Source: Caulobacter sp. BK020 (GTDB lineage: Bacteria > Pseudomonadota > Alphaproteobacteria > Caulobacterales > Caulobacteraceae). From it: a stretch of DNA of 64,000 nt. The DNA is taken from NCBI RefSeq assembly GCF_004342605.1, contig NZ_SLZL01000006.1:186001-250000 (forward strand), in the 5' to 3' direction. This document shows, piece after piece, positions 17,866-38,998 of this stretch. The translations under genes and the position numbers were made by a program. The notes below the pieces were generated by a model that saw nothing but the letters and a program-made list of their open reading frames with translations, searched no databases and was not told the DNA's origin. The stretch's first letter is position 1; each line of letters opens with the position of its first letter.

Positions 17866-18755
17866 CCCTGCGCATCGCCATGATCGGCCTGGGCGACATC
17901 GCCCGGAAGGCCTACTTGCCCGTGCTGGGGCCTCGCGCCGACGTCGAGCTGGTGTTCGTCACCCGCAACGCCCAGACCCTGGCCGAACTGGGCGCGGCCT
18001 GGCGGGTGGAGCGACTGCACGCCGACCTCGACACGGCCCTGGCGCAAGGCCTGGACGGCGCGCTGGTCCACGCCGCCACGGCCGCCCATCCCGACATCCT
18101 CCGCCGCCTGCTGGAGGCCGGCGTGCCGACCCTGGTCGACAAGCCGATCGCCGACAACGCCGCCGACAGCGAGGCGCTGGTCGATCTGGCCGAGACCCGG
18201 GGCGTCTCGCTGATGGTGGGCTTCAACCGCCGCTTCGCCCCGGCCTATCGCGACGCCGCCGCCCTGAACCTGCCGCTGGTGCTGATGCAGAAGAACCGGC
18301 CCGGGCCGCTGGACGACGTGCGCCGGGCGGTGTTCGACGACTACATCCACGTGGTTGACACCCTGCGCTTCCTGGCTCCAGGCGCGCGCCAGGCCGCCGT
18401 GCGCGGCCGGGTCGGCGACGGCCGGCTGGAACATGTGGTGCTGTCGTTGTCGGGCGACGGACGCGACGCGGTCGGGATCATGAACCGGCTCAGCGGCGCC
18501 AGCGAAGAGCTGCTGGAAGTCTCCGGCCAGGGACAGAAGCGCAGGATCATCGACATCGAGCAGATCGTCGACCAGGGCCCCGTCGAGGCGTTGACCCGAC
18601 GGGGCGCCTGGACCTCCGTCGGTCGCCAGCGCGGCTTCGAGGCGATGTGCGAACATTTTCTGGACGCGGTGCGCAGCGGCCGCCGGCTGTCGGCGCTGGA
18701 CGCGCTGGAGACGCATCGGCTGTGCGAGACGGTGGTCCAGGCCTTGGCGGTCTAG
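17862..18755 (+). CDS. Gfo/Idh/MocA-family oxidoreductase in the biotin operon
   Basis: A 297-residue NAD(P)-dependent dehydrogenase-like protein. The N-terminal Rossmann fold begins IAMIGLGDIARKAYL, and DKPIADN (about residue 93) is the family's signature EKP-like loop. The C-terminal part fits the Gfo/Idh/MocA alpha/beta domain but is short for the family (usually 320-380). It starts inside the bioD stop (ATGA). The substrate is unknown. Tight coupling to bioF-bioD suggests a role linked to biotin, or simple operon hitchhiking. Its stop codon lies in the stem of a 20-bp hairpin. Confidence 0.88.
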   Translation: MTLRIAMIGLGDIARKAYLPVLGPRADVELVFVTRNAQTLAELGAAWRVERLHADLDTALAQGLDGALVHAATAAHPDILRRLLEAGVPTLVDKPIADNAADSEALVDLAETRGVSLMVGFNRRFAPAYRDAAALNLPLVLMQKNRPGPLDDVRRAVFDDYIHVVDTLRFLAPGARQAAVRGRVGDGRLEHVVLSLSGDGRDAVGIMNRLSGASEELLEVSGQGQKRRIIDIEQIVDQGPVEALTRRGAWTSVGRQRGFEAMCEHFLDAVRSGRRLSALDALETHRLCETVVQALAV

Positions 18756-18801
18756 AGCAAGCCGCGCGATATAAGAATCGCGCGGCTTGCTCTAGATTTT
18801 T
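18751..18801 (+). terminator. Intrinsic terminator, 20-bp perfect stem
   Basis: TCTAGAGCAAGCCGCGCGAT, loop ATAAGA, then the exact reverse complement and TTTTT. The TAG stop of the oxidoreductase gene is part of the stem, so the hairpin forms at the end of the coding sequence. Confidence 0.88.
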
Positions 18802-18857
18802 GTTTTCGCATCGCTTTTGCGGAAAACCGGCATCCACTTTTCCGCGCGATGCTCTAG
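18797..18857. repeat. Intergenic repeat-like element (GCATCG...CGATGC family)
   Basis: The segment reads GCATCGCTTTTGCGGAAAAC, then CGGCATCCACTTTTCC, then GCGCGATGCTCTAG. The ends GCATCG and CGATGC pair, and the middle carries the GGAAAACCGG/CCACTTTTCC signature of the short intergenic repeats that are widespread in alphaproteobacteria. It separates the biotin operon from the desaturase gene. Confidence 0.55.
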
Positions 18858-18878
18858 GTCCCGCTCGTCACGGCCTTC

Positions 18879-19949
18879 TCAGGCGCTCTGGCGTTCGGCC
18901 GTCTCGGCCTCGATCGCCACGGCGGGCGTCATCCCCGCGCGGCGGAACAGCTTGCCCAGAGCCACGAAAAGGCCCTTCTCCTCGACCCGGTGATAGGGCG
19001 AGGTCGCCGCCAGCTGGGCCGACAGCCGGGCGTGAGCCTTGCCCAGGTTGTGATACGGCAAGCGCGGCAGCAGGTGATGCAGGGCGTGGTAGCGCAGGCC
19101 CACCGGCGCCCACAGGAACGGCAGCAGGGCCGGCGGCGGCACGTTGACCGAGTCCAGGAACTGGTCCTCAAAGCTCATTCGCTCGCCGTCGTTCTCCCAA
19201 TAGTGGGCGACCAGGGTCCGCAATTGGTTGACGAAGGTGGCCAGGGAGAACAGCGCGAACCAGGTCAGAACCACGCGGATCGGCACAATCCCGGCGACGG
19301 TCAGGGCCGCGATGCTCCAACACCACAGCCAGCAGCCCACCTCCTGGGCCAGCCAGTCCGGCCGGGTCTTGTCGTTGTCCTCGCGCACGAAGTCGGGATT
19401 GATCACGAGCGCCGACAGCTTGGTCCGGACCAGCCGGCGCACGGCGGGAACTACGAAGGACAGCGGGATCAGGATCCCCGAGCGCAGGATCACGCCCAGC
19501 GGGGCCAGCAGCGAGATCGCCGCGAACAGCACCAGCTTGAACGGCGAATAGCGGCCCAGCGGCAGGTATTCGGGATCGCGTGCGGTGCCGAAACGGTCCT
19601 TGGCGTGGTGCAGGTTGTGCACGCCCTCGTACATCATCGACGGCGTCATCAGCGGCACGCCGATCAGCAGGTTCCAGCCCAGGCGGAATCCCGGCACGTC
19701 CTTAGGCCGCAGGTGGCTGATCTCGTGGATGAAGCTGAGGCCGCGATAGAGGGCCAGCAGGCCGACCAGGCCCGCGGCCAGGCCGATCGCCAGGCCATGG
19801 GTCGTGGCCGCCAGGGCCAGGCCGCCCCAGGCCGCCGCCGCCGTCAGCAGGAGGTCGAGCCAGTAAAGGCCGCGACTGGGCGTCGTCAGGTCCGCCGTCA
19901 GGCTGTGCGCCTGGCGGACCAGTCCGGCCTCTTTTGGGGATGATCCCAC
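18879..19949 (-). CDS. Membrane fatty acid desaturase
   Basis: A 356-residue integral membrane enzyme of the FA_desaturase family. The three His-box regions that bind the di-iron centre are visible: FIHEISHL, HNLHHAK and HALHHLLP. Four or more hydrophobic segments sit between them. It would introduce double bonds into acyl chains using oxygen and electrons from a ferredoxin or cytochrome. The genomic context gives no substrate. Length and box spacing are normal for this class. Confidence 0.9.
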   Translation of the reverse strand: MGSSPKEAGLVRQAHSLTADLTTPSRGLYWLDLLLTAAAAWGGLALAATTHGLAIGLAAGLVGLLALYRGLSFIHEISHLRPKDVPGFRLGWNLLIGVPLMTPSMMYEGVHNLHHAKDRFGTARDPEYLPLGRYSPFKLVLFAAISLLAPLGVILRSGILIPLSFVVPAVRRLVRTKLSALVINPDFVREDNDKTRPDWLAQEVGCWLWCWSIAALTVAGIVPIRVVLTWFALFSLATFVNQLRTLVAHYWENDGERMSFEDQFLDSVNVPPPALLPFLWAPVGLRYHALHHLLPRLPYHNLGKAHARLSAQLAATSPYHRVEEKGLFVALGKLFRRAGMTPAVAIEAETAERQSA

Positions 19950-20185
19950 GTCGTCCTCACGCCCACGCCAACCTCAGCGCCCCGACTTGGCGCCCCGACC
20001 TTCGAAATTCAATCCGTATGGACGGGTGAACGGACGAAAATCGCCGAAAGCCTCTAGCGCAAAATGGCCGGCGTCGAAACGCCAGCCATTGTCGCAGATC
20101 AAGGAACCCAGTCGATGGTTGCTCTCGCGCCATCGCCGCCCACGCGCTCCGGCCCGATCGGTCAGCGAGGCTTCCAGCCCGCAGC
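19950..20185. other. Gap of 236 bases without a convincing gene
   Basis: This lies between the desaturase start and the GH30 stop. It contains an open frame on the minus strand that ends at 19974, but that frame is only the continuation of an alternative frame of the GH30 gene, without its own start signal. Confidence 0.5.
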
Positions 20186-21595
20186 TCACCAGACGAACGT
20201 CACTGCCGCGCGGCCAGGGGCCGTGGCCCTGAAGCGGTTCGCGCCTTCGCTGATCGCGAACGTCGCCGGCTGGGGCCCGAGGTTGAGCACGATCAGGACG
20301 CGACCGCCGTCGCGATTCTGGAACGCCACGGTGCGCAGGTCGCCGAGCTTGGCGGGCGAGCCGATCCGCGTCGCGCCGGGCTTCACGAAACGGCTGGCAT
20401 GACCGAAAGCGTAATATTCCTGGGTGCGGGTGATCGCGCCGGTTCGGCTGTCGATCGTGACGAAGGCCCGGCAGTCGTTGCAGCCGCCCTTGTGCGGGCC
20501 GAACGTCTCGTCCAGCGCCAGATTCCACATCAGGACGCCGCGCGCGCCGGCCCGGGTGGAGCCGATGATCAGGTTCTCGACCATCCAGGCGAAGCTGTCG
20601 TCGAACTTCGGCGCCCATTGCCCGCCCGAACACTCCGTCAGGAAGGCGTCTTCGTCGGGATGGGCCGCCCTCACCTGGTCCTGGGCCGAAACCTCGCCCG
20701 CGTAGCAGTGCCAGGCGACGCCCGCCAGGAAGGCCTTGGCTTTCGGGTCGGCCAGGACGGTCAGCGGCTGTTGAGGCTGGTCCCAGTTATGGTCCCAGTC
20801 GAGAACCCTGGTGGCGATCTTCTCGCGCTTGAACGTCGGCGCCAGGTTCTCGCCGAAGAAGCGCGCCCGATCAGGGGCCGGCCAGCGCATGCCCGGATAG
20901 CTGTCGGGTTCGAAGTCCGGCTCGTTCTGGATGCTGAGATAGTCGGTCGGCACGCCGAGCTTCCGAGCCCCTTTGACGTAGCGAGCGAAGAAGTCGGCAT
21001 AGACCGGATAGGCCGCGGGCTTGAGCTGGCCCTGGATCAGCGAGCCGCTGGTCTTCATCCAGGCCGGCGCGCTCCAGGGCGAGGCCATCACCTTGAGGGC
21101 GGGATTGATCCTCAGCGCCGCGCGGACCGTCGGGAAGACGTACTGTTGCGGCCGCGCCAGCGAGAAGTGCTCCAGCTTCGGATCGGCCGCGCCGCCGGGG
21201 CCGTCGTCGAGGCTGTAGTGGTCCAGCGAGAAGTCGGACGCGCCAATGGTGATCCGGGTGAAGCTGAAGCCCAGCTGCCCCTCACCGCGCCCGTAGAGTT
21301 CGCGCAGCAGCTTGTCGCGCTGGTCGGGCGAGAGCCTGGTCTGGATCAGCCAGGCCGAGGCGTCGGTGATCGCGCCGCCGAAGCCGACCATCGACTGGCG
21401 CCGCTCCTTGGGATCGACGACGAGCGTCGGCAGGCCGGCGATCTGGTCGGCGGTGGCGAGGCTGGACGGGGCCTGGGCGGTCAGGAGCTGGGTCTTGTCG
21501 CCCGTGGTCACCCAGGCCCGCAGCTTCGGCGCGGCGACGGCCGGCATCGCGATCGCCAGGGTCAGCGCCACGACGGCGATGTTCAGGGCGCGCAT
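20186..21595 (-). CDS. Secreted glycoside hydrolase family 30 (glucosylceramidase-like)
   Basis: A 469-residue exported GH30 enzyme. The signal peptide is about 22 residues (ending PAVAA), followed by the GFGGAITDASAW motif near residue 75. The acid/base Glu is in SIQNEPDF and the nucleophile Glu is in FLTECSGGQW. A beta-domain completes the C-terminus. Family members cleave beta-linked glucosides or xylans. The start overlaps the stop of the upstream GH3 gene by one base (TGATG), so the two were built as a beta-glucoside-degrading operon. Confidence 0.92.
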   Translation of the reverse strand: MRALNIAVVALTLAIAMPAVAAPKLRAWVTTGDKTQLLTAQAPSSLATADQIAGLPTLVVDPKERRQSMVGFGGAITDASAWLIQTRLSPDQRDKLLRELYGRGEGQLGFSFTRITIGASDFSLDHYSLDDGPGGAADPKLEHFSLARPQQYVFPTVRAALRINPALKVMASPWSAPAWMKTSGSLIQGQLKPAAYPVYADFFARYVKGARKLGVPTDYLSIQNEPDFEPDSYPGMRWPAPDRARFFGENLAPTFKREKIATRVLDWDHNWDQPQQPLTVLADPKAKAFLAGVAWHCYAGEVSAQDQVRAAHPDEDAFLTECSGGQWAPKFDDSFAWMVENLIIGSTRAGARGVLMWNLALDETFGPHKGGCNDCRAFVTIDSRTGAITRTQEYYAFGHASRFVKPGATRIGSPAKLGDLRTVAFQNRDGGRVLIVLNLGPQPATFAISEGANRFRATAPGRAAVTFVW

Positions 21596-23217
21596 CACGG
21601 CTTCCTCGTCCAGGCTTTCAACTGGGCCTTGCCGCCCAGCACGGCGTCGCCCGCATGATGGCCGACATAGAGCGGATAGCTGCCCGGGGCGATCGTCCAG
21701 CCCGGCTTGGCTGGATCATAGTCGGCCAGGATGCGCGGCTCGACACTCAGGGTGAGGCGCTTTGTCTGGCCCGGCGCCAGGTCGACCTTCTGGAAGCCCG
21801 CCAGGCGGACCATGGGCTTGCGCCGGCCGGACGTGACGTAGAGCTGCGGCGTGTCGGCGCCGGCCACCTTGCCGGTGTTGGTGACGTCGAAGCTGACCTT
21901 CAGCCCCTCGCCGTCCTCGACCTTGAGGTTCTGGTAGCCGAAGGTCGTGTAGGAGAGGCCGTAGCCGAACGGATAGAGCGGCTGGCGCTTTTCCTGGGCG
22001 TACCAGCGGTAGCCGACGGCCGCGCCCTCGACGTATTTCACGGGGAAACCCTTGATCGGTCCCGCCTTCTGGCCGGCGCGGCGGGAGTCGTCGATGGCGG
22101 CCTGCTCGGCGAAGCCCGGGGCGCTCGCGCGCGGCGCCTGGTCGGCGGTCTTCGGGAACGTCATGGCCAGGCGGCCCGACGGATTGACCTCGCCGAACAG
22201 CAGGCGGGCGATGGCCTGGCCGCCGCGCTGACCGGGGTACCAAGCCTGCAGCACCGCCCCGACCCGGTCGAGCCAGGGCATGGTCACCGGGCCGCCGGTC
22301 TCCAGCACCACGATGGAATTCTTGTTGGCGGCGGCGACCGCCTCGATCAAGGCGTCCTGGTTCTCGGGCAGGACGATCGATGGGGCGTCTTGCGCTTCGG
22401 TCTGCCAGTGCCAGGCAAAGACGATGGCGACGTCGGCGTCCTTGGCGGCGGCCGCGGCGGCGGCCGGGTCCTTGCCGTCGACATAGACGACCTCGGCGCC
22501 CGGCGCGGCGGCCTTGATCGCCTCCAGCGGCGAAGAGGCGTGCCAGGTGATGCGGACGAACGAGGCCGCCTCGCCGCCGTTCAGCGGGATCTCGACCGGC
22601 GCGCCGCCGACCGAGCGCACCTGGGACGAGCCGCCGCCCGAGATCACGCCGACGTCGGCATGGGCGCCGATCAGCACGATCTTCCTGGCGCTCTTGGCCA
22701 GGGGCAGCAGGTTCTCGTCGTTCTTCAGCAGCACCGCACCACGCTCGGCCACAGCCTGGGCGACCTTGGCGTGGGCGGCGTAGTCGATCGGCTGGACGGT
22801 CAGCGGGGTCGGATTGTCCATCAGGCCCGAGGTGATCACCCCATGCAGGATGCGGCGGACCATGTCGTCGAGGCGGGCCTGGCTGACCTCGCCCCTCGCG
22901 ACGGCCGCCTTCAGGTCGTCGCCGAAGAAGATCTGGGTGTCCAGCTCCTGGCCCGACTGCTGATCGAGGCCGGCCAGGACGGCCTTGACCGTGCTGTGCA
23001 CCGCGCCCCAGTCGGACATCACCCAGCCCGGATAGTTCCAGTCGCGCTTCAGCACCTTGTTCAGGAGGACGTCGTTCTGGCAGGCCCAGTCGCCATTGAC
23101 CTTGTTGTAGGCGCACATGACCGAGGCCGGATTGGCCTTCTCGATCGCGATCTGGAAGGCGAGCAAGTCGCTCTCGCGCAGATCCGCCTCGTCGATCTGG
23201 GCGTCCATCACGTGGCG
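21595..23217 (-). pseudogene. Glycoside hydrolase family 3, 5'-truncated
   Basis: The 538 residues from the first ATG (23208) cover the C-terminal two thirds of a GH3 beta-glucosidase. The nucleophile Asp is present in GWVMSDWGA, followed by the alpha/beta sandwich (ERGAVLLKND) and the fibronectin-like C-terminus ending in YPLYVGHHAGD. Full-length relatives carry roughly 230-250 more residues, including the signal peptide and most of the TIM barrel. Family similarity can be followed to RHVMDAQIDEA, where the sequence becomes GMC oxidoreductase on the other strand. Almost certainly inactive; downstream coupling to GH30 remains. Confidence 0.85.
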
Positions 23218-23999
23218 GCATCGAGAACGTCCGCCTGCTCCTGGCCTCCGACGGCCTCGGCAACGCGCACGACCTGGTCGGCCGCTTCTTCCAGGGTCAC
23301 GTCACCTACAGCAACGACGGCGACGCCGAGACCGAAGGCTCCGCGGTGACGATCACCCGCGCCGCGCCGATGGACCTCTACGCTCCGGCCAAGCGGATGG
23401 CCGCCCATTGCGTGATCGGCTCGGGCCTGCCCGCCCAGGCGCGCATGAAGACTGGCAACTTCACCGCCACCCTGTTTCGCGCCGACGTCTCCAACCCGGA
23501 CACCAGGGCGATCGCCAGGCTCGGCGGCCTCCTGACCGGCGGAGGCGGCGGCCAGACGTTCGGCTACTTCGCCATGGCCGAACATTTCCCCAACCCGGAC
23601 AGTCGCGTGACCCTGGATCCCGCCCACCGGGACGCCCTGGGAGAGCCCCGTGTCCGGCTAAGCTGGGTTTATGGCGACAGGGACCACGCCGATCTGGAGC
23701 GTTCGGTCGCCGGCTTGGCCGACGCTCTGGGCGCGTCCGGCGAAGGACGGCTGTGCTGGTCGATCGAGCATGGTCAGTTGCTGGCCAATTCCAGCGCCTC
23801 GCGTCACCACATGGGCACGACGCGGATGCATGCCGATCCGGCCAAGGGCGTGGTCGATCCCGACCTGCGGCTGCACGAGGCCCGCAACCTCTATGTGGCG
23901 GGCAGTTCGGTGTTTCCGACCTCGGGCATCGCCAATCCGACCCTCACCATCCTGGCCCTGGTCATGCGCCTGGCCGACCATCTGAAAGGCGCCCAATGA
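23214..23999 (+). pseudogene. GMC-family oxidoreductase, 5'-truncated
   Basis: The open frame reads GGIENVRLLLAS (family pattern after the FAD-binding region) and continues to the C-terminal substrate domain, with HHMGTTRMH (catalytic His) and VAGSSVFPTSGIANPTLT, the usual end of GMC enzymes. About 260 residues remain of roughly 530-560. The FAD-binding N-terminus and promoter are gone, replaced by the truncated GH3 gene. A possible internal ATG is at 23346. The last codons overlap the next gene by four bases. Confidence 0.85.
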
Positions 24000-24358
24000 T
24001 CCGCCGCCGCGATCTGCTGACCGCTCTCGTCGCCCTGGCCGCGACGCCCGTGCTGGCCCGCGGAGAGGCGCCCGCCGGCCTGGCCGAACTTGATCGCGCC
24101 GCCATCGCCAGGATCGGCGAGGCCTGGCTCGCCCGTCGCCCGGAACTCACCCTCCGGAAACTTGAGGCCCGACTGTTCCCCGGCGGACGCGGCGAAGCGG
24201 CCCTGCCCCGCCTGCGCGATCAGGCGGCCGCCGACTTCCGGCGCGGCGCGGTGTTCAGTTATCGCGGCTGGCGCCTGTCCGACACCGAAGGCGCGCTCCT
24301 TGCCCTGCTCTTCCTTGAAAGCGGATCGGCCTCGGCCCACGCACGTGTAAAAGGTTGA
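23996..24358 (+). CDS. Small exported protein, probable GMC dehydrogenase subunit
   Basis: A 120-residue protein beginning MIRRRDLLTALVALAATPVLA, a signal with a twin-arginine-like RRRD motif, so it may leave by the Tat path. It overlaps the truncated GMC oxidoreductase by four bases (ATGA). GMC dehydrogenases often have such a small third subunit (gluconate 2-dehydrogenase subunit 3 type), and the size and context fit. No catalytic motif is visible. If the GMC gene is dead, this subunit is an orphan. Confidence 0.7.
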   Translation: MIRRRDLLTALVALAATPVLARGEAPAGLAELDRAAIARIGEAWLARRPELTLRKLEARLFPGGRGEAALPRLRDQAAADFRRGAVFSYRGWRLSDTEGALLALLFLESGSASAHARVKG

Positions 24359-24539
24359 GACGACTAAAAAGCTGAGGCGCTTGGGCCGGCCAACGAGACG
24401 GGTCTGCACATGCGCGACATGAGCGAGGCCTGCTGCCCTGAAGCACGGGACTGACGGATCCAAAGCCCCACTTTTGTACAAGCCGGCGACCGCCGATCAT
24501 GGTCTCGTGGGCTGAACTTCGAGACGCCAGGAGAACGCG

Positions 24540-24971
24540 ATGAAGATCGTCAGAACCGGATCGGCCGCCTGGAGCGGCGGCATCAGGGACGGCAAGGGCT
24601 CGATCTCGACCGAGAGCGGCGCCCTGCAGGCTTACCCCTACGGCTTTTCCAGCCGCTTCGAAGGCCAAGCGGGCTCCAACCCCGAAGAGCTGATCGGCGC
24701 GGCCCACGCCGCCTGTTTCACTATGGCGCTGTCACTGGTGCTGGGCGAGGCTGGGCTGCGGGCCGACCAGATGGACACCTCGGCCAAGGTCACGCTCGAA
24801 CAGGTCGACGGCGGCTACGCGATCACCGCCTCGCACCTGACCCTGAAGGCCCGGATTCCCGGCGCCGACCAGGAGACCTTCGAAAAGCTCGCCGCCGGCG
24901 CCAAGGCCAACTGCCCGGTCTCCAAGCTACTGAACGCCGCGATCACCCTGGACGCCGCGCTGGTCGACTAG
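24540..24971 (+). CDS. OsmC-family peroxiredoxin
   Basis: A 143-residue thiol peroxidase of the OsmC group, which reduces organic hydroperoxides. The two reactive cysteines are in AHAACFTMAL and ANCPVSKLLN, and the SNPEELIGAAHAAC motif is typical. Length is normal for OsmC (140-145). The 180-base gap upstream would hold the promoter. The next gene starts 40 bases later in the same direction. Confidence 0.94.
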   Translation: MKIVRTGSAAWSGGIRDGKGSISTESGALQAYPYGFSSRFEGQAGSNPEELIGAAHAACFTMALSLVLGEAGLRADQMDTSAKVTLEQVDGGYAITASHLTLKARIPGADQETFEKLAAGAKANCPVSKLLNAAITLDAALVD

Positions 24972-25011
24972 ATCGTTGGTTGCGGCCAGGCCGGCGAGAA
25001 AGGGACTCTTC

Positions 25012-25641
25012 GTGAGCCGATACAGCTTCCTAGACCTCGCCGGCTCGGCGAGCGTGAGAGCCGCACAGGCCGAGATGGGCGCCGACCATCTCTGGACGCC
25101 CGGGCAGGTCGACCGCCGGTCCGAAGCGTTCACCGCCAACGAAGAGGCCTTCATCGCCGCGCGCGACAGCTTCTACATGGCCAGCATGTCGGAAACCGGC
25201 TGGCCCTATGTCCAGCACCGCGGCGGGCCGCCGGGCTTCCTGAGGGTGATCGACGAGACGACGCTGGCGTTCGCCGACTTCCGCGGCAATCGTCAGTACA
25301 TCAGCGTCGGCAACCTCGACGCCAACGACCGGGTGGCCTTGATCCTGGTCGACTATCCCCGACGCGCTCGCTTGAAAATCCTGGCCCACGCCGAGCGTCT
25401 GGCGCTCGACGCCGAGCCGGAGCTGCTGCCGAAGCTTCTCGACCCCGGCTACCGGGCGAAACCGGAGCGCATCTTCCGGCTGCGGCTGGCGGCGTTCGAC
25501 TGGAACTGTCCCCAGCACATCGTCCCGCGTTTCACCGAGGCCGAGATCTCTCGCGCCGTCCAGCCGCTGCACGAGAAGCTGGAGGCGCTGGAGGCTGAAA
25601 ACCGCGCCCTGCGCGAGCGCCTCGCGCAAGCCGAGCGCTAG
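25012..25641 (+). CDS. Pyridoxamine 5'-phosphate oxidase-like flavoprotein
   Basis: A 209-residue PNPOx-like split-barrel protein with a C-terminal coiled coil (LEALEAENRALRERLAQ). Motifs FYMASMSETGWPYVQHRGGP and FADFRGNRQYISVGN are typical of FMN-binding members of unknown substrate. The GTG at 25012 is chosen because AGAAAGGGA precedes it with good spacing; a TTG further upstream would lengthen the protein by 12 residues. Follows osmC closely and probably shares its transcript, consistent with an oxidative-stress role. Confidence 0.85.
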   Translation: MSRYSFLDLAGSASVRAAQAEMGADHLWTPGQVDRRSEAFTANEEAFIAARDSFYMASMSETGWPYVQHRGGPPGFLRVIDETTLAFADFRGNRQYISVGNLDANDRVALILVDYPRRARLKILAHAERLALDAEPELLPKLLDPGYRAKPERIFRLRLAAFDWNCPQHIVPRFTEAEISRAVQPLHEKLEALEAENRALRERLAQAER

Positions 25642-25654
25642 ACGCCGCGCGGCC

Positions 25655-26530
25655 CTATGAGAGATGACGGCCCAGGAAATCGCCCATGTGGTCGGCAATC
25701 TCGCGACCGTGCGTCTCCAGGGCGAAGTGCCCCGCATCGAGAAAACGCACCTCGGCCTTGGGCAGGTCACGGCGGAAGGCTTCGGCCCCCGCGGGCAGGA
25801 AGAAGGGATCCTTCGCCCCCCAGACCGCCAGGAGCGGCGGCTGGCGTTCGCGGAAGTACGCATGAAAGCGCGGATAGAGCGCGACGTTGCTCTGGTAGTC
25901 GGCGATCAGGTCCAGCTGAATGTCGGCGTTGCCCGGACGCGACATCAGGGCGTGGTCCAGCCAGTAGCCCTCCGGCGCCACCTGGGTCTCGTCGGGCGCG
26001 CCGTGGGTGTACTGCCAGCGCATCGCCTCCAGGGTGAACATGCCGCGCATGGCTTCACGATTGGCCGGCGAAGGATCGGCCCAGTAGGCGCGGGTCTCGG
26101 CCCACCCGTCGCTGAGGCCGTCTTCATAAGCGTTGCCGTTCTGCGAGACGATGGCGGTGATCGCGCCCGGCCTGGCCAGGGCCAGGCGCAGGCCGACCGG
26201 CGCGCCGTAGTCGAAGATATAGATCGCATAGCGTTCGAGACCGATGGCGTCGGTGAAGGCTTCCATGGTCTCGGCCAGGCGCGCGAAGCTGTAGTCGAAG
26301 CCGTCGGGCGCGGTGGTGAAGCCAAAGCCCGGCAGGTCGGGCGCGACCACGTGGTAACGGTCGGCCAGGCGCGGGATCAGGTCCCGGAACTGATGCGACG
26401 AGGTCGGAAAGCCGTGCAACAGCAGGATCGCCGGGCGGTCGCGGCCGCCCGCCTCGCGATAGAAGATCGAGACATCCCCGACCTCGGCGCGGCACAGGAC
26501 GATCTTGGGGGAAAGAGAGTCTGGCAACAT
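25655..26530 (-). CDS. Alpha/beta hydrolase, dehalogenase/epoxide-hydrolase type
   Basis: A 291-residue alpha/beta hydrolase without a signal peptide. The oxyanion motif [15 protein letters not shown] and the nucleophile region IFDYGAPVGLRLA suggest an Asp nucleophile, as in haloalkane dehalogenases and epoxide hydrolases. The late AGHFALETH has the catalytic His. It shares about half its residues with the exported hydrolase at 28407, including QNGNAYEDGL versus [10 protein letters not shown]. The substrate is unknown. It is convergent with the PNPOx-like gene. Confidence 0.9.
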   Translation of the reverse strand: MLPDSLSPKIVLCRAEVGDVSIFYREAGGRDRPAILLLHGFPTSSHQFRDLIPRLADRYHVVAPDLPGFGFTTAPDGFDYSFARLAETMEAFTDAIGLERYAIYIFDYGAPVGLRLALARPGAITAIVSQNGNAYEDGLSDGWAETRAYWADPSPANREAMRGMFTLEAMRWQYTHGAPDETQVAPEGYWLDHALMSRPGNADIQLDLIADYQSNVALYPRFHAYFRERQPPLLAVWGAKDPFFLPAGAEAFRRDLPKAEVRFLDAGHFALETHGREIADHMGDFLGRHLS

Positions 26531-26568
26531 CGGAGGCCCCGGTCTTTCTGCGTCTGTTCTTATGGTCT

Positions 26569-27249
26569 CTAGGCGCCGGCCCTGGCCACGGCTTGAGCCT
26601 TCTGGAAGCTCTCCATGACCGCGGCGTAGTTGGGCGCCGCCAGGCCGTAGAGTCTGGCCAGCTCGGCGGCTTCCGGACGCGCCCAGGTGCGATGCAGCTC
26701 GCTCAGCAGCGCATTGGCCGAGGTCGGCTTGATCCCGCCCTGGACGAAGCGAGCGAGACTGGTGCGCGAGGCCATCTCGCTGGGATCGCCCGAGGCGTCG
26801 ACGACCGCGTAGACCTCGTAGCCTGCCGCGCGCGCGTCCAGCGCCGGGAACATCACGCAGACACTGGTCCAGACGCCCGCCATGATCAGGGTCTTGCGGC
26901 CGCTGGCCCTGACCTGGTCGACGAAGTCGCCATTGTCCCAGGCGTTCACCTCACCCTTGCGCGGCACGTAGACGGCGTGGGGCGCAAACTCGTGGATCTC
27001 GGGCATCAGCGGGCCGTTCGAGCCGGTCGGCTCGGACGCCGTCGTGATCACCGGGATGTTGAGCAGAGTCGCGAGCCGAGCGATCATCTCGACATTGCGC
27101 CGCAGGTCCGCCACGGCGATGTCCCTGACGGTCTGGAACAGGCCCGACTGGTGATCCAGCAGCAGGATCACGGCATCGGCGGGATCCAGAAGCGCCGCGC
27201 CACCGCCCGTGGGCAGGACGCTGGTCTTCGAGTTCGGCGGCGTGGTCAT
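26569..27249 (-). CDS. Isochorismatase-like hydrolase (YcaC type)
   Basis: A 226-residue cysteine hydrolase of the isochorismatase superfamily. The catalytic Asp is in LLLDHQSGLF, and the cysteine is in AGVWTSVCVMFPALDA; PRKGEVNAWDN probably supplies the Lys. The pattern and length fit YcaC-like enzymes rather than siderophore isochorismatase, and no siderophore genes are nearby. The ATG at 27249 has GAGGACCTCC upstream. It lies 38 bases upstream of the dehalogenase-like hydrolase, so the two probably form one transcript. Confidence 0.9.
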   Translation of the reverse strand: MTTPPNSKTSVLPTGGGAALLDPADAVILLLDHQSGLFQTVRDIAVADLRRNVEMIARLATLLNIPVITTASEPTGSNGPLMPEIHEFAPHAVYVPRKGEVNAWDNGDFVDQVRASGRKTLIMAGVWTSVCVMFPALDARAAGYEVYAVVDASGDPSEMASRTSLARFVQGGIKPTSANALLSELHRTWARPEAAELARLYGLAAPNYAAVMESFQKAQAVARAGA

Positions 27250-27556
27250 GGGAGGTCCTCGGACTGTCGCGCTCGGCTCGGCGCGTCTTCTCGGACGCCC
27301 GCGCAGATCGACAATTCCCCGCCTAGACTGCTTGATCCAGTAAAGTCCGGTAAATTGCGGTTCCGCTCCTGCACGCCTCAATGACTGACGCAGGTTCAGC
27401 CGTCGGTTTCTCTGTAGATCGGGGTCGTTTTCTAAACACCACCTCGACTTCTCCAACCTTGACCGCCTTTTACCACGCCTAACCCCACGAACGTCTCCCG
27501 GAGGACTAGTCCTATCGGCCAACGCCCGCCTCGGGCTCGGTCGTCCCCCGGAGAAC
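27250..27556. promoter_or_regulatory. Divergent promoter region (hydrolase genes)
   Basis: A 307-base gap between the isochorismatase-like gene and the exported alpha/beta hydrolase. Both must be transcribed outward from here. I see no gene and no clear operator. The 27340-27430 part is less GC-rich and is the likelier promoter position. Confidence 0.4.
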
Positions 27557-28318
27557 ATGATGAAACGCGCCCTCGTTGGAATGATCGCGGCCATCGCCGC
27601 CACGGCCCCCGCTGGCGCAATCTTCGCCGCCGAAAAGCCGATCTCCATCGTCCTGGTCCACGGCGCCTTCGTCGACGCCTCGGGCTGGCGTCCAGTCTAC
27701 GAGCTGCTGTCGAAGAAGGGCTACGAGGTCCTGATCGTCCAGAACCCGACCATCACGCTGGAGGGGGACGCCGCCGCCGTCCGCCAGGCCATCGCCCAGG
27801 CCAAGCGCCCAGTAATCCTGGTCGGCCATTCCTACGGCGGCGCGGTGATCACCGAGGCCGGCGCCGACCCCAAGGTCAAGAGCTTGGTCTACCTGGCCGC
27901 CTTCGCGCCCGACGCCGGCGAGTCGGTGCTGCAACTGGCCACCACGCCGGTTCCCGGCGCGCCGCCCGCCCCGCTCCTGCCGCCCAAGGACGGCTTCATC
28001 CAGGTCGACCCGGCAAAGTTCGCCTCGGCCTTCGCGGCTGACGTCGATCCGGCCGTCACCCGCTTCATGGCCGCCTCCCAGGTACCCTGGGGCCTGGGCG
28101 CCGTCGGGGCCAAGATCAGTGCGCCGGCCTGGAAGGCCAAGCCCAGCTACTACCTGCTGGCGACGCAGGACTTGATGATCCCGCCCGCAGCCCAGCGCGC
28201 GATGGCGGTGCGAGCCAAGGCCACGCTGGTCGAAACAATCAGCAGCCACGCGGTGATGCTCTCCAAGCCCGGCTATGTCGCCGACTTCATCGCGATGGCG
28301 GCCGACCAGGCCAAGTAG
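27557..28318 (+). CDS. Exported alpha/beta hydrolase (Ser nucleophile)
   Basis: A 253-residue alpha/beta hydrolase with a signal peptide (about 24 residues, ending IFAAE). [14 protein letters not shown] holds the oxyanion loop, GHSYGGAVI the nucleophile Ser and ISSHAVML the catalytic His. Such proteins act as esterases or acyl hydrolases in the periplasm. A second ATG lies one codon downstream. It is followed after 88 bases by a second exported hydrolase. Confidence 0.9.
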
Positions 28319-28406
28319 TCGATCCGCCACGCCGCGCCTCGCCCGCGACACATGCGGCGCGACCGCTTCCTTCCCGAAAATCCCCAGAGAACCTCAGGAG
28401 ACCTCG

Positions 28407-29393
28407 ATGACTCGCCTGCTCACATCCCTGGCGCTCGCCGCCACCTTTTCGACAGCCGCCTTGGCGCCCGCATCGGCGGCCCTGGCCGCGCCCGCCCCCA
28501 AGGCCGCGCTCGCTCGTCGGGCGCCGCCGGTCATCCACTATCGCAACGCCACGGTCGACGGCGTGAAGGTGTTCTACCGCGAGGCCGGCCCGGCGGATGG
28601 TCCGGCGGTGGTGCTGCTGCACGGTTTCCCGACCTCGTCCCACATGTTCCGTAACCTGATCCCGTTCCTGGCCGACAGATACCGCGTCATCGCGCCTGAC
28701 TATCCGGGCTATGGCCAGAGCGACGCGCCGGACCACAACCAGTTCGCCTACACCTTCGCCAACCAGGCCAACGTGGTCGACAAGCTGGTCGGCCAGCTGG
28801 GCCTCAAACGCTACGCCCTGTACGTCATGGATTACGGCGCCCCGATCGGCTACCGCCTGGCGCTGAAGCATCCAGAGCGTGTCAGCGGCCTGATCGTCCA
28901 GAACGGCAACGCCTATGACGAGGGCCTGCAATCGCCGTTTTGGGACCCGATCAAGGTGTACTGGAAGGATCGCTCGCAGAAGAACCGCGACGCCCTGAAC
29001 AACCTGGTCACGCTGGACATCACCAAGTTCCAGTACACCGACGGCATGGGCGACGTGGCGCGCATCAGCCCCGACAACTGGGTCCACGACCAAGCGCTGC
29101 TCGACCGCCCGGGCAACCGCGACGTCCAGCTGGACATGCTCGGCGACTACGGCTCCAACGTGCCGTTCTATCCGGACTTCCAGAAGTTCTTCCGCGACTA
29201 CCAGCCGCCGACCCTGATCGTCTGGGGCAAGAACGACAAGATCTTCCCGGTGGCCGGCGCCCATCCCTATCTGCGCGACCTGCCCAAGGCCGAGGTCCAT
29301 ATTCTCGACTCCGGCCACTTCGCCCTGGAAGATCGCCTGGACGTCATGGCGCCGCTGATCCACGACTTCCTCGATCGCAAGGTCGCCAATTAG
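28407..29393 (+). CDS. Exported alpha/beta hydrolase, dehalogenase/epoxide-hydrolase type
   Basis: A 328-residue protein: signal peptide (about 30 residues), then an alpha/beta hydrolase with [15 protein letters not shown], nucleophile region [13 protein letters not shown] (Asp), [11 protein letters not shown], and terminal DSGHFALED with the His. The ATG at 28407 follows CAGGAGACC and gives the signal peptide. Its cytosolic paralogue lies at 25655 on the other strand, so one cluster holds an exported and an internal version of the same fold. The substrate is unknown; role in breakdown of halogenated or epoxide compounds is a guess from the fold only. Confidence 0.88.
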
Positions 29394-29414
29394 CCCCCAA
29401 GATATCCGCGACGC

Positions 29415-30011
29415 TCACCGCGTCGCGGATATCCCGCCAAGACGCTGGGCGAACACCTCCTCAATCCAGGCCTCGTCGTGCGACCTCAGTTCGATGAACA
29501 GAACCCGGCGCGGCGGGCCCGCGCCGGCGTCCTTCATGGGATCGCCTGGCACGTCCAGAACCGTGGACCGCATGGCGCGCGCCAGGAGCGCCATGACCTC
29601 CTCGAAATTTCTCGCAGGGTCCTGCGCCGCGCCCTCGACCTCGCCGACAAGCGGTCGAAAAGAGGCGTTCGCCGCCGCCGACGGCATCTCGCCGGTGTCG
29701 ACCGGCGCGATGAAACGGTAGCCCCGTCCGTTCACGGTGGCGATGTATCTGGCCGAGTCCGCGTCGTCGTCGAGCACGCGGCGCAGGGCCGCGATGTGGA
29801 CCTTGAGATTGCCCTCGACGACGGTCGTGCTCGGCCAGGCTTCTTTCAGCAGTTCGCGTTTGGTGATGAGCTCGCCCGGCCTTTGAACGAAGGCCGTCAG
29901 CAGGTCCAGGGCCCGGCCTCCGACGCGAACGGCCTCCCCGTCCCTTAGAAGCAGCTGGCGTCCGGGGATGAAGAGATAGGCGCCGAAGGCGAAGGTCGGC
30001 GCCGGGGTCAT
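29415..30011 (-). CDS. Winged-helix transcriptional regulator (OmpR/CadC-type domain)
   Basis: A 198-residue protein with an OmpR/PhoB-type winged helix in its first 105 residues. It has the KRELLKEAWP recognition helix and the NGRGYRFIAPV wing. There is no receiver domain before it and no membrane helix after it, unlike OmpR and CadC. The C-terminal 90 residues are of unknown type. It is convergent with the exported hydrolase gene and is the likely local regulator of the hydrolase cluster, though no binding site was recognised. Confidence 0.85.
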   Translation of the reverse strand: MTPAPTFAFGAYLFIPGRQLLLRDGEAVRVGGRALDLLTAFVQRPGELITKRELLKEAWPSTTVVEGNLKVHIAALRRVLDDDADSARYIATVNGRGYRFIAPVDTGEMPSAAANASFRPLVGEVEGAAQDPARNFEEVMALLARAMRSTVLDVPGDPMKDAGAGPPRRVLFIELRSHDEAWIEEVFAQRLGGISATR

Positions 30012-30445
30012 GGCCCGATCGCCGGGGCCGCCGCGACCGCGCCGTCGCCATTGTTCCGGCGGCGGGCGGATTTCGAACGGTTCGACACGCCACCCTCCTT
30101 TGCATTGGACGAGCGACGGTACCGCTCCAGGCCGTCGCGCTTCAATTCGCCCATGGTCGCGCTGCGATCGTCCTAGGGCGTGCTGGACTCGACCTTCGTC
30201 TAGTCGGCTCCGCCCCGCTGGCCTTGGCCTGAGACGAAGGCCTCGCCGGGCGGCGAGGCTGGGAACGGGCGCGCGCCTGACCAGAAGGCTCCGGGTCCGC
30301 GAAACCGCCTCATACAGGGTTGACCCTAGCCGATCGTCGAACGCGCCTAGACCTTGGTTGAGGTGGAAGCAGCGCCGGTATCACGCTAGGCTGCTGGCTG
30401 CGTCGGAGAGACAGGACGTCGGAGAGACAAGGCAAAGGGCTGCTC
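30012..30445. other. Gap of 434 bases without a convincing gene
   Basis: It lies between the winged-helix gene and the histidine kinase and must hold the promoters of both divergent units. Plus-strand open frames here lack a start signal and are the effect of high GC. I see no repeat or operator. Confidence 0.4.
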
Positions 30446-33295
30446 GTGGCACCTCCGCACGTCATGCCGCTGGCGACCGAGCGTTGGGCCCTGGAACAGC
30501 TCCCCCGCGACCTTGAACGCCTGAGCCGCCTGCCCGAGACCTGGAAAGGCCTGGATCCCACATCGATCGCCCAGAGCGTCCTTGAGACCCTGCTCGACAT
30601 GCTCGCGCTGGACTTCGTCGGCCTGCGGTTCAACGACACGACCCACGTCTTCCTGCGCGTAACGCCCGATTTCGAGTCGATCTGCTCGCCCGAGCAGATC
30701 CGCGCGGCGCTGAACGGTTGGAGCGCCCCAGACGACACCGCGGAAGGACTCGACCTGGACGGCCAGCCGGTGAGGGTCGTGCGATGCCCGCTGGGCGTCA
30801 GCGCCGGCATTGGCGAGATTCTCGCCGGCTCCCGCCGCACCGACTTTCCGGACGGCCAGGAGCAGTCGAAGCTCAGGATCGCCGCCTCGCAAGCCAGCCT
30901 GGCCTGTCGGGAAATGCGCGAACTGAGCGATCGCCGGCCGCCGGAAGATCGGCGCGCCGGGCCGGCCACTGCTCAGGCGGTGGCGGAAAGCGAATGGCGC
31001 CTGCACCTGATCATCAACACCATCCCGGCCATGGCCTGGTCGACGACGCCCGACGGGCTCATCGACTTCTGCAACCAGAACTTCGTCGATTACGTCGGCT
31101 GGACCGCCGAGGAGATCAGCGGCCAAGGCTTCTGGCCGATCTTCCATCCCGACGACACCGCCCGGCTGCTGGCCGCCTGGCAGGAGATTCTGGCCACCAA
31201 GCAGCCGCGGGACGTCGAGGGGCGCATTCGGCGCGCCGACGGCGAATACCGCTGGTTCGTGTTGCGGCAAAACCCGCTGCTGGACGCCGACGGCGCCATC
31301 ATCAAGTGGTATGGGGCCGGCGCGGACATCGAGGATCGCAAGCGCGCAGAGGCGGCGCTCGAGGAGGCCCGGTCAGCCCTGCTGGCCAGTGAGGAGAACC
31401 TCAACCTGATCATCAATTCGCTACCCGTACTGGTCTGGTCCGCCCGCCCGGACGGCAGCGCCGATTTCATAAACCAGAGCTGGCGCGACTATGCCGGCGA
31501 GCCAGCCGACAAGATCCTGGAGTGGGGCTTCCTCGACCTCTATCATCCCGACGACGTACCCGGGATGATGGAAATCTGGACCCGGGACGTGGCGCACAAC
31601 GACCAGACCGCGCTCAAGGGACGCATCCGCGGGGCGGATGGCCAGTACCGCTGGTTCTACTTCGCGGGGCGCAAGCTGACCGACGCCCAAGGCCTGGTCC
31701 GTTGGTTCGGGTGCAATGTCGACATCGAAGACCTGATGCGGACCGAAGAGGCCCTCAAGGCCAGCGAAGCCGCGCTGCGCGACAACGAACGGCGGCTGGA
31801 GCACATCATCAACGCCGTTCCCGGCCTGGTCTGGTCGGCCGATGCGCACGGCGCCGTCACGTTCCTGAGCCAGCAGTACCTGGACTATATCGGCATGGAC
31901 GCCGGGAGCGCCCTGGCCGGCGCCTGGCGCGACGCCGTTCACCCCGACGACGCCGGGGGGCTCTTCGAGACCTGGGCCGTCGCCTTGGCTCAGGGGCGCG
32001 CGAACGAGCATGAAGCACGCCTGCGGAGCGCCGATGGCGGCTATCGCTGGATGCTGTTTCGCGCGAGCCCGTACTTCGACGGCGCCGGGCGGATCGCCGA
32101 GTGGCTCGGCGTCAATATCGACATCGAGGACAGGAAGGAGGCGCAGGACGCCCTTGCCGCAAGCGAGGCGGCGCTACGGGACAGCGAACGTCAGCTTCAG
32201 CAAATCGTCTCCTCGATCCCGGGCCTGACCTGGTCGTCCGACGCGCGAGGCGCCACAACCTTCTGGAGCCAGCAATATCTCGACTATGCCGGCGCGCGGC
32301 TCGAAGACGTCCTGGGCTACAAGTTCGCCGACTACATCCATCCCGACGATCGCGACCACGTCATGGCCTTGTGGGCGGAGATCATCGCCGCGGGGACGCC
32401 CGGCGAGGCCGAGCTGCGCCTGCGCCGCGCCGACGGGGAGTATCGCTGGTTCCTGATCCGCGCCTGCCCGTTCTTCGACGAGCATGGAAACCTAACCCAG
32501 TGGTTTGGGGTCAATGTCGACATTGAAAACCGCAAGCGGGCCGAAGAGGATCTGCGTCAGAGCCAAGGCGATCTGGCCCACGTCACGCGCATGACCACCA
32601 TCGGCGAGTTGGCGGTGTCGATCGCCCATGAGGTCAATCAACCGCTGATGGCGGTGGTCACCAACGCCGGGGCGTGCCTGCGCTGGCTCGATGGCCCCCA
32701 GAGCGACATCGCCATGGCTCGCCAGGCCGCCGAACGGATCGTCCGGGACGGCCACCGGGCGGGCGACATCGTCACCAGCCTGCGCAATCTCGCGCGCAAG
32801 TCCTCGCCCCGCATGGAGCGCGTCCTCCTTGAGGCGGTGGTCCAGCCCGTCCTCGACCTGCTTGGCGGCGAGCTCAAACGCCACGGCGTCTCCGCACGGA
32901 TCGATCTGGAGGACGGCGCGATCGCCATCCTGGGCGACACGACCCAACTGCAGCAGGTTATCCTCAACCTCACCATGAACGCGGTCGAAGCCATGGCCGG
33001 CGGGGCTGCGAGTCCCCGGCAACTGATCATCCACGCCAACGCGCGCGAGGGCGAAGCCCTGGTCACCGTGACGGATACCGGACCCGGGCTGGTCCTCGAC
33101 GACACCAATCGCCTGTTCGAGGCCTTCTTCAGCACCAAGGCCCAAGGCATCGGGATGGGCCTGTCGATCTGTCGCTCGATCATCGAGGCCCATGGGGGCC
33201 GGATCTGGGCGGCCAACAACGGCGCGCGTGGCGGCGTCTTCAGTTTCACCCTGCCCTTGGCGGAAGGACACGGCGTTCATGTTTCCACACGCTAA
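30446..33295 (+). CDS. Soluble multi-PAS sensor histidine kinase
   Basis: A 949-residue kinase without membrane helices. Domains in order: a GAF-like region (about 25-155), four PAS/PAC repeats (about 185-300, 316-430, 448-560, 580-695), HisKA with the phospho-His in SIAHEVNQPL (His-728), and a HATPase domain with NLTMNAVEAM, DTGPGL and GMGLSICRSI. Each PAS has the HPDD and YRWF patterns of the PAS-fold-3 type. The GTG start has AAAGGG upstream; an ATG six codons later is possible. It overlaps the next gene by 17 bases and should phosphorylate it. The signal sensed is unknown. Confidence 0.92.
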   Translation: MAPPHVMPLATERWALEQLPRDLERLSRLPETWKGLDPTSIAQSVLETLLDMLALDFVGLRFNDTTHVFLRVTPDFESICSPEQIRAALNGWSAPDDTAEGLDLDGQPVRVVRCPLGVSAGIGEILAGSRRTDFPDGQEQSKLRIAASQASLACREMRELSDRRPPEDRRAGPATAQAVAESEWRLHLIINTIPAMAWSTTPDGLIDFCNQNFVDYVGWTAEEISGQGFWPIFHPDDTARLLAAWQEILATKQPRDVEGRIRRADGEYRWFVLRQNPLLDADGAIIKWYGAGADIEDRKRAEAALEEARSALLASEENLNLIINSLPVLVWSARPDGSADFINQSWRDYAGEPADKILEWGFLDLYHPDDVPGMMEIWTRDVAHNDQTALKGRIRGADGQYRWFYFAGRKLTDAQGLVRWFGCNVDIEDLMRTEEALKASEAALRDNERRLEHIINAVPGLVWSADAHGAVTFLSQQYLDYIGMDAGSALAGAWRDAVHPDDAGGLFETWAVALAQGRANEHEARLRSADGGYRWMLFRASPYFDGAGRIAEWLGVNIDIEDRKEAQDALAASEAALRDSERQLQQIVSSIPGLTWSSDARGATTFWSQQYLDYAGARLEDVLGYKFADYIHPDDRDHVMALWAEIIAAGTPGEAELRLRRADGEYRWFLIRACPFFDEHGNLTQWFGVNVDIENRKRAEEDLRQSQGDLAHVTRMTTIGELAVSIAHEVNQPLMAVVTNAGACLRWLDGPQSDIAMARQAAERIVRDGHRAGDIVTSLRNLARKSSPRMERVLLEAVVQPVLDLLGGELKRHGVSARIDLEDGAIAILGDTTQLQQVILNLTMNAVEAMAGGAASPRQLIIHANAREGEALVTVTDTGPGLVLDDTNRLFEAFFSTKAQGIGMGLSICRSIIEAHGGRIWAANNGARGGVFSFTLPLAEGHGVHVSTR

Positions 33296-33923
33296 GGACA
33301 GCGAGCCCTTCGTCGTCGTGATCGACGACGACGAAAGCGTGCGCGAAGCGCTGCGCGGGCTCTTCCAATCGGTCGGCCTGGTGACCGAAATCTACGCGTC
33401 GGTGCAGGATTTTCTCGATGGCGGCCAGCTCGACCGCGCGGGCTGCATCGTTCTCGACATCCGGCTTCCAGGCCGCAGCGGCCTGGAGTTCCAGGAGGCC
33501 CTGGCCCGGAGCGGTGCGGCCCACTCCGTCGTGCTGATCAGCGCCCATGTCGACGTTCAGATGGCGGTGCGAGCGATGAAGGCCGGCGCGATAGACGTCC
33601 TGACCAAGCCGGTCCGCGAGCAGGATCTCCTGGAGGCGGTGAACCGCGCCCTGGCCAAGGATCAACAGCGCCGAGGCGAGGCCAAGCTCAACCAGGCGCT
33701 GGCGACGCGCTACGCCACCCTGTCCGAACGCGAACGTCAGATCTTCGTGCTGGTCGCGGCCGGCCTGCTCAACAAGCAGATCGCCGAGCGCGCCGCCATC
33801 ACCGAGGCGACCGTGAAACTCCACCGCAGCCAGGTGATGAAGAAGATGGAGGCCGAGTCCCTGCCCGATCTGGTGCGCATGGCCGACCGGCTGGCCAGGG
33901 TCGAGTCGAGCCCGAAGCTCTAA
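33279..33923 (+). CDS. FixJ/NarL-family response regulator
   Basis: A 214-residue regulator with a receiver domain (VVVIDDDESV, phospho-Asp in IVLDIRLPG, KPVREQD) and a LuxR-type helix-turn-helix (TLSERERQIFVLVAAGLLNKQIA). The domain layout is that of FixJ. The ATG at 33279 is preceded by GGAAGGACAC and lies inside the end of the kinase gene, so the pair is translationally coupled. Targets are unknown; nothing in the flanks looks like an obvious regulon. Confidence 0.93.
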   Translation: MFPHAKDSEPFVVVIDDDESVREALRGLFQSVGLVTEIYASVQDFLDGGQLDRAGCIVLDIRLPGRSGLEFQEALARSGAAHSVVLISAHVDVQMAVRAMKAGAIDVLTKPVREQDLLEAVNRALAKDQQRRGEAKLNQALATRYATLSERERQIFVLVAAGLLNKQIAERAAITEATVKLHRSQVMKKMEAESLPDLVRMADRLARVESSPKL

Positions 33924-33965
33924 GCCAGTCGCCGGCCGGCGGCGAGCCCCGCCGCGACGCCCTCA

Positions 33966-34137
33966 GGCCTCGTCGAGAAAGCCGCGCAGCAGGGCGTTAT
34001 GCTGGGCAGGCTTTTCGTTCACCGTCAGGTGTGAACCGCCGGCCATCACGGCCAGGCGCGCCTGGCCGGCGACGCCGTCGCGAAGGGTCTCGTGACAGTC
34101 GAGCGTGATCTCATCGAACTCGCCAGTGGTGTGAGCC
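33966..34137 (-). pseudogene. 3' remnant of an alpha/beta hydrolase gene
   Basis: On the minus strand the sequence encodes about 55 residues ending MAGGSHLTVNEKPAQHNALL, then GFLDEA and a stop. This is the usual C-terminal region of an alpha/beta hydrolase with the catalytic His in GGSHLT. Directly upstream in frame is TGA (about 34138-34140), and beyond it the composition changes to AT-richer DNA. No start codon or fold can be restored, so it is a broken gene end. Confidence 0.7.
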
Positions 34138-34269
34138 GTTCATTTACGGTCGGTCCTGGTGGGTTTTACCCACGTCAGATCGACCAACTCAACTTGGGCA
34201 GATGCAATAAAAAAGTGACCGATTCCAATGGGATCGGCCACTTGTTTACAACATCGTTCCTGAGGAAAA
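34138..34269. other. AT-richer spacer with ssb terminator
   Basis: This 130-base stretch is clearly less GC-rich than its surroundings. It contains the ssb terminator and a short palindrome GTGGGT-TTT-ACCCAC (34159-34173). No gene is visible. The break between hydrolase remnant and this DNA near 34138 looks like a recombination joint. Confidence 0.45.
34207..34241 (-). terminator. ssb intrinsic terminator
   Basis: On the minus strand GTGGCCGATCCC, loop ATT, GGAATCGGTCAC form a 12-base stem with two G-U pairs, followed by TTTTTTATT. It starts 29 bases after the ssb stop. Confidence 0.85.
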
Positions 34270-34770
34270 TTAGAACGGAATTTCGTCGTCCAGATCGGCC
34301 GAGAAGCTCTCGCGCGGACCGCTGGGCTGGCTGCGGGGCGCGCCGCCGCCGAAGTTGCCGCCACCGCCGGCGTAGCCTTCGTCATAGCCGCCGCCCGACG
34401 AGGCGCCGGCGTTGTCGCCGCGGCCGCCGAGCATGGTCAGTTCGCCGCGGAACTTCTGCAGCACGATCTCGGTGGAGTACTTCTCGACGCCCGAGGCGTC
34501 GGCCCATTTGCGGGTCTGGATCGCGCCCTCGATATAGACCGTCGAGCCCTTGCGCAGATAGCTTTCGGCCACTTTCACCAGGTTGTCGTTGAAGATCACC
34601 ACCCGGTGCCATTCGGTCTTCTCCTTGCGCTCGCCCGAGGTGCGGTCGCGCCAGGTTTCCGAGGTGGCCAGGCGCAGGTTGGCGACGCGATCGCCCGAGC
34701 TGAGGGTGCGGATTTCGGGATCGGCCCCGAGATTGCCGACCAGAATGACCTTGTTGACGCTGCCCGCCAT
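34270..34770 (-). CDS. ssb: Single-stranded DNA-binding protein
   Basis: A 166-residue SSB: N-terminal OB fold beginning [19 protein letters not shown], with [11 protein letters not shown] and KGSTVYIEG, a Gly-rich linker, and the acidic tip DLDDEIPF that recruits replication and repair proteins. It is complete and of normal length. The 141-base region before it should hold its promoter. Confidence 0.97.
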
Positions 34771-38919: not shown

Positions 38920-38998
38920 AGCGGGTCCCAACGGGACGCGACGCCCCTTGATTCCAAGTGTCGGCGAGGAACGCTGACGTTTCGTTAAGACGTGTGAA

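Follow-up and report, generated by a model that had tools for sequence, protein, structure and literature searches.

The junction between a GH3 glycosidase remnant and a GMC oxidoreductase remnant in Caulobacter sp. BK020 looks like a genuine scar in the chromosome, set within horizontally acquired DNA. It lies in a 64,000-nucleotide stretch (the window; G000 contig C6:186001-250000), within a mosaic block that occupies an insertion hotspot. We lean, with modest confidence, towards a history in which foreign operons gathered at the hotspot and a deletion at a 6-bp microhomology fused two divergent ones. The junction looks like a new instance of known processes, an ordinary scar of gene gain and loss. 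What it offers is a single scar, resolved to the base, at a Caulobacter insertion hotspot where no mobility genes were recognised. The features on which the analysis turns are listed below in window coordinates.

18879-19949, minus strand: fatty acid desaturase gene, native left neighbour (Pfam FA_desaturase)
20107-34131, unstranded: acquired mosaic block of ~14.0 kb, lying between desaturase gene and ssb (edges of flank similarity in relatives)
20167-23219, minus strand: segment A, complete GH30 plus the 3' part of GH3 (GH source locus)
20186-21598, minus strand: GH30 gene, complete frame of 470 aa (Pfam Glyco_hydro_30 and 30C)
21595-23211, minus strand: GH3 remnant, 538-aa open frame, first ~226 codons gone (Pfam and comparison with the intact gene)
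23214-23219, unstranded: junction, 6-bp GGCGGC common to both source genes (genus search, pairwise alignments and register alignment)
23214-24319, plus strand: segment B, matching the GMC locus
23214-23999, plus strand: GMC oxidoreductase remnant, 261 codons, without the FAD-binding half (Pfam GMC_oxred_C only; 0 internal stops)
23996-24358, plus strand: small gene behind GMC, final residues differing from relatives (20 of 20 loci, 17 distinct)
24472-34131, unstranded: segment C, with OsmC, PNPOx, alpha/beta hydrolases, isochorismatase and others (Pfam)
33963-34131, minus strand: alpha/beta-hydrolase remnant, last ~55 codons (frame against the intact G025 gene; family assigned by eye)
34270-34770, minus strand: ssb gene, native right neighbour (Pfam SSB; collinear in close relatives)

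A precise junction between two truncated genes

We searched 75 genus genomes, our own included; among the 74 others, 24 carry a GH3 orthologue at 87-92% DNA identity. Similarity to GH3 on the minus strand stops at window 23219 in 19 of these 24 genomes and at 23217 in the remaining 5, while similarity to GMC on the plus strand starts at 23214 in nearly all matches listed. Pairwise alignments with relatives agree on both edges. The original prediction held that two unrelated genes both break off at a single position, with GH3 stopping at about 23217 and GMC starting at about 23214; the sharp edges at 23214-23219 against the intact genes of relatives bear this out. The junction is real in the assembly, and precise.

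Placed in register, GH3 relatives read CACGTGGCGGC up to the edge and CGGTC beyond it, GMC relatives read GTC before the edge and GGCGGCATCGAG after it, and the window reads CACGTGGCGGCATCGAG. The two sources are thus identical over 6 bp at the junction. Random blunt joining of the G013 GH3 and GMC genes produced an overlap of at least 6 bp in only 0.39% of 200,000 joins, which argues for microhomology at the GH3/GMC junction. A 33-mer spanning the junction has no exact match in the genome contig collection, which may omit our own genome, so the junction rests on one assembly.

Both remnants have lost their 5' parts

That both genes lose their 5' parts is confirmed by Pfam and by comparison with the intact G013 genes (766 aa for GH3 and 512 aa for GMC): GH3 has lost about 226 of its 766 codons and GMC 238 of its 512. 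The predicted break near GH3 codon 240 was close to the one we found (~227 of 766), and the predicted GMC break near codon 300 was too high (239 of 512).

According to Pfam, the GH3 remnant retains GH3_C, Fn3 and, out of 316 profile positions in the N-terminal domain, only 187-314. Compared with a complete GH3 glycosidase, which carries full PF00933 and PF01915, it has PF01915 complete and PF00933 in part, and the intact G013 GH3 covers PF00933 positions 59-314. A complete GMC enzyme combines an N-terminal FAD-binding part with PF05199. The remnant matches PF05199 only, and the intact G013 GMC additionally matches GMC_oxred_N and FAD-binding models. Because GH3 is without most of its N-terminal domain and GMC without its FAD-binding half, both remnants are probably non-functional as enzymes, and the two frames at the junction should not be annotated as working ones. 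The small gene behind GMC has no Pfam match, and its similarity to relatives stops at 24309-24319 in pairwise alignments.

The missing halves were sought elsewhere in the genome. The G013 GH3 5' region and its upstream genes returned, apart from the short junction overlap, paralogues only (GH3 at 76-77%, halogenase-like at no more than 71%). The GMC 5' half (L026:3037-3750) had no match; BlaI/BlaR1-like matches stand at 67-74%. Neither 5' half yielded an orthologous match, so both are absent from the assembly, not displaced.

We saw no signal of decay in the GH3 remnant, whose dN/dS of 0.12-0.24 against relatives falls inside the spread among the relatives themselves (mean 0.156, range 0.05-0.30). 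Decay of the GMC remnant was assessed by stops and identity. The absence of stops, together with a GH3 dN/dS within the relatives' spread, indicates either that truncation is recent relative to divergence or that the fragment is still constrained.

A mosaic block at an insertion hotspot

In close relatives, native similarity ends at about 20016-20109 on the left and starts again at 34115-34271 on the right. Both flanks are preserved there, with bio genes, an oxidoreductase and the desaturase on the left and ssb onwards on the right; the desaturase gene is collinear with the bio genes at 82-93%. Between these flanks, the block is mosaic: its segments, at least three in number, match different Caulobacter loci. 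Segment A shows 85-87% DNA identity to the 7 long GH loci compared. The main pieces of segment C show ~76-85% DNA identity to loci in G012, G025, G059, G010 and G013, where its counterpart is a hydrolase/regulator cluster sited elsewhere; its further genes, by Pfam, are a Trans_reg_C regulator, a PAS histidine kinase, a response regulator and a truncated hydrolase. The left border of A falls within ~80 bp past the GH30 stop and the right border of B at the 3' end of the small gene. At its right end the block cuts a third gene, the hydrolase, whose remnant borders the native ssb flank. Two stretches are assigned to no segment: about 150 bp separating B from C, and 60 bp at the left edge. G+C is 67-71% throughout the block, so composition does not separate its parts. 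No Rfam family reached the gathering threshold in window 14000-40000.

Judged by a core stretch of 6.5 kb, the closest relatives include G010 (93%), G019, G059, G017, G015, G020, G016, G039 and G040. None of these nine carries an orthologous GH3, and the search returned paralogues only, at ~67-72%. The gap between matched flanks measures 24 bp in G039, 0.66 kb in G017, 1.3 kb in G020 and 1.9 kb in G015, as against 14.0 kb in our own genome, 15.8 kb in G019 and 27.7 kb in G010. The flanks of G059, G016 and G040 are on different contigs and give no verdict on the site. Genes in the G010 and G019 inserts are unrelated to those of the window block. The same core neighbours thus enclose a site that is nearly empty in some genomes and differs in content among others, and by this comparison the desaturase-ssb site behaves as an insertion hotspot.

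No integrase or transposase appeared among the Pfam matches of the block's scanned genes, or in the 20 of 25 predicted proteins scanned from the G010 and G019 inserts. Horizontal-transfer hotspots that lack mobile-element genes have been described across 80 species in PMC5635113 (Nat Commun 2017). The desaturase-ssb site resembles those described there in that one core intergenic position takes different accessory sets in different strains and in that the scanned proteins of the three inserts hold no integrase or transposase domain; it differs in having been compared in only about ten genomes.

The G010 insert runs from L095:4622 to L096:14361 and the G019 insert from L097:3483 to L098:6264. 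They hold TonB receptors, glycoside hydrolases (GH31; GH1), transporters and regulators, and G010 also shows a 2477-aa reading frame.

Source loci and origin of the acquired DNA

Intact GH loci follow the order TonB receptor, halogenase-like gene, GH3, GH30 in all 7 examined, which fits the earlier guess that the missing block held a TonB receptor. At 20 of 20 GMC loci (17 distinct; three were fetched twice), an intact GMC gene is followed by the small gene. BlaR1 precedes GMC in 19, and the twentieth locus begins at a contig end. The relatives' genes are named here (TonB receptor, halogenase, BlaR1) from our reading of their sequences. At G000 C6:72640-148373, ~76 kb of sequence stands where G013 has an 84-kb stretch (2.728-2.812 Mb) containing the GMC source locus.

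Nine relatives carry both genes on a single contig, with GH3 and GMC separated by 116 kb to 2.5 Mb: ~116-119 kb in G069, G045, G043 and G027, 235 kb in G072, ~290 kb in G013 and G012, 461 kb in G018 and 2.5 Mb in G025. Their relative orientation is that of the window in six of the nine, and in none are the two operons side by side. Nor did a GH partner lie near GMC at any of the 17 distinct GMC loci, or GMC near the GH operon at the 7 GH loci, each viewed with a few kb of flank. The idea that GH3 and GMC were native divergent neighbours fails on these distances and on the varying orientation; relatives with intact divergent neighbours were looked for, and none was found among the loci examined.

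Sequence identity fits transfer of the GH3 remnant. It is 89.4-90.4% identical to its counterparts in G013, G012, G018, G025 and G061, genomes with a core identity of 86.2-86.8%. Across 54 relative pairs at core identity 86-88%, GH3' averaged 85.7% with a maximum of 88.2%, so the remnant stands above all 54 comparable pairs. The trees agree weakly with transfer: the core tree places G000 with G010, and the GH3' tree, built without G010, places it with G018 on a short branch (support 0.94). Repeated loss in close relatives could be another reason for the absence of GH3 there. Gene transfer agents are a possible vehicle for the acquired DNA, as those of Caulobacter carry ~8.3-kb pieces by the account in PMC9632790. 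We also considered a plasmid source and rejected it: no plasmid record covers 80% of window 20110-24500, and the best listed plasmid matches to this interval are GH3 genes at 63-72% identity.

How the junction may have formed

In the deletion history that we favour, DNA matching at least three Caulobacter loci has built up at the desaturase-ssb site, as the comparison of relatives shows. Two operons acquired there would have been divergent, with GH3-GH30 (preceded by the TonB receptor and halogenase-like genes) on the minus strand and GMC and the small gene on the plus strand. A single deletion running from GH3 codon ~227 to GMC codon 239 would then have fused them at GGCGGC, whether through slippage, end joining or some other illegitimate route. 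The truncation may have been recent enough for both remnants to keep open frames. We favour this course because only then do the outer borders meet operon ends without coincidence. The pre-deletion state is present in no genome examined, so we infer the deletion step. The original proposal of a single deletion between divergent genes survives in part: orientation and outer borders fit it, and the native local block that it assumed is not supported.

Broken Caulobacter fragments A, B and C might instead have been joined end to end and captured, through Ku/LigD end joining or homology-facilitated illegitimate recombination (HFIR), so that the GH3 and GMC operons were never neighbours. This we regard as doubtful. 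It would account for the presence of at least three segments whose counterparts are widely separated in the complete relatives examined, and for two mid-frame gene cuts, at the GH3/GMC junction and in the hydrolase at 34131. Our genome also encodes Ku (C5:286548-287087) and LigD (C5:292504-293241) ~5.4 kb apart, and HFIR junctions mostly carry micro-homology of 3-10 bp, as reported in the part of PMC3240628 that concerns them. However, A and B at their outer ends, and C at its left end, stop at or just outside gene ends, where random breakage would rarely place them, and segment C alone spans 9.7 kb. A version in which fragments from several donors were joined by Ku/LigD and captured in one repair event is a long shot. 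If true, the GH3/GMC and hydrolase/ssb joints would be natural end-joining footprints and would mark a gene-acquisition route in Ku-bearing Caulobacter. A misjoin of two pieces by the assembler at 23214-23219 is improbable: the genome is a draft of 47 contigs and the exact junction occurs in no other genome searched, but the window contains no N, both 5' halves are absent from the whole of an assembly rated 100% complete, inserts at the desaturase-ssb site arise independently in relatives, and only 6 bp are common to both pieces. Six base pairs is short for a misjoin by an ordinary short-read assembler. We give very little credence to a large native deletion, which would have started from the arrangement of GH3 and GMC in G013 and G012 (~290 kb apart, in the same orientation) and removed the whole interval. 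The fusable orientation in 6 of the 9 relatives with both genes on one contig would allow it, but the junction flanks match other places and the fused piece sits in an inserted block. With a G013-like gene order, the 290-kb deletion is contradicted by the genome itself and was rejected, since genes from G013 2.668-2.728 Mb, between its GH3 and GMC, are kept in order at C6:18.8-72.6 kb.

Relation to known recombination processes

Ku is present in 51 of the 75 genus genomes, and the genus search for Ku gave no match in G069. C. crescentus is stated to be without end joining in the relevant portion of PMC9632790. The presence of Ku and LigD shows a capacity for end joining only and does not imply its use at the junction. 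Loci for Ku and LigD are L162:6248-7123 and G000:C5:292504-293241.

The GH3/GMC junction resembles the HFIR joints of PMC3240628, as described there, in having short micro-homology where unrelated DNA meets. HFIR involves natural transformation and RecA dependence; at the block, no homologous end of any incoming DNA could be recognised. The Caulobacter NA1000 and K31 chromosomes are scrambled relative to each other, mostly by non-transposase means according to the summary in PMC4221894, and the block shares with them rearrangement or insertion without a transposase explanation. That study compares whole gene order, whereas the GH3/GMC joint is resolved to the base. Comparing mid-gene joints between Ku and non-Ku genomes could test end joining as one candidate for non-transposase rearrangement.

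A hairpin repeat near the block

A 116-bp element with a long hairpin lies at window 18749-18864. It occurs at 3 places in the 272-kb contig, has many copies in relatives at ~82-96% and matches no Rfam family. Copies in G059 (L104) interrupt sequence that is collinear with the window at 38998-39001 and at 39614, so the element looks like a mobile intergenic repeat.
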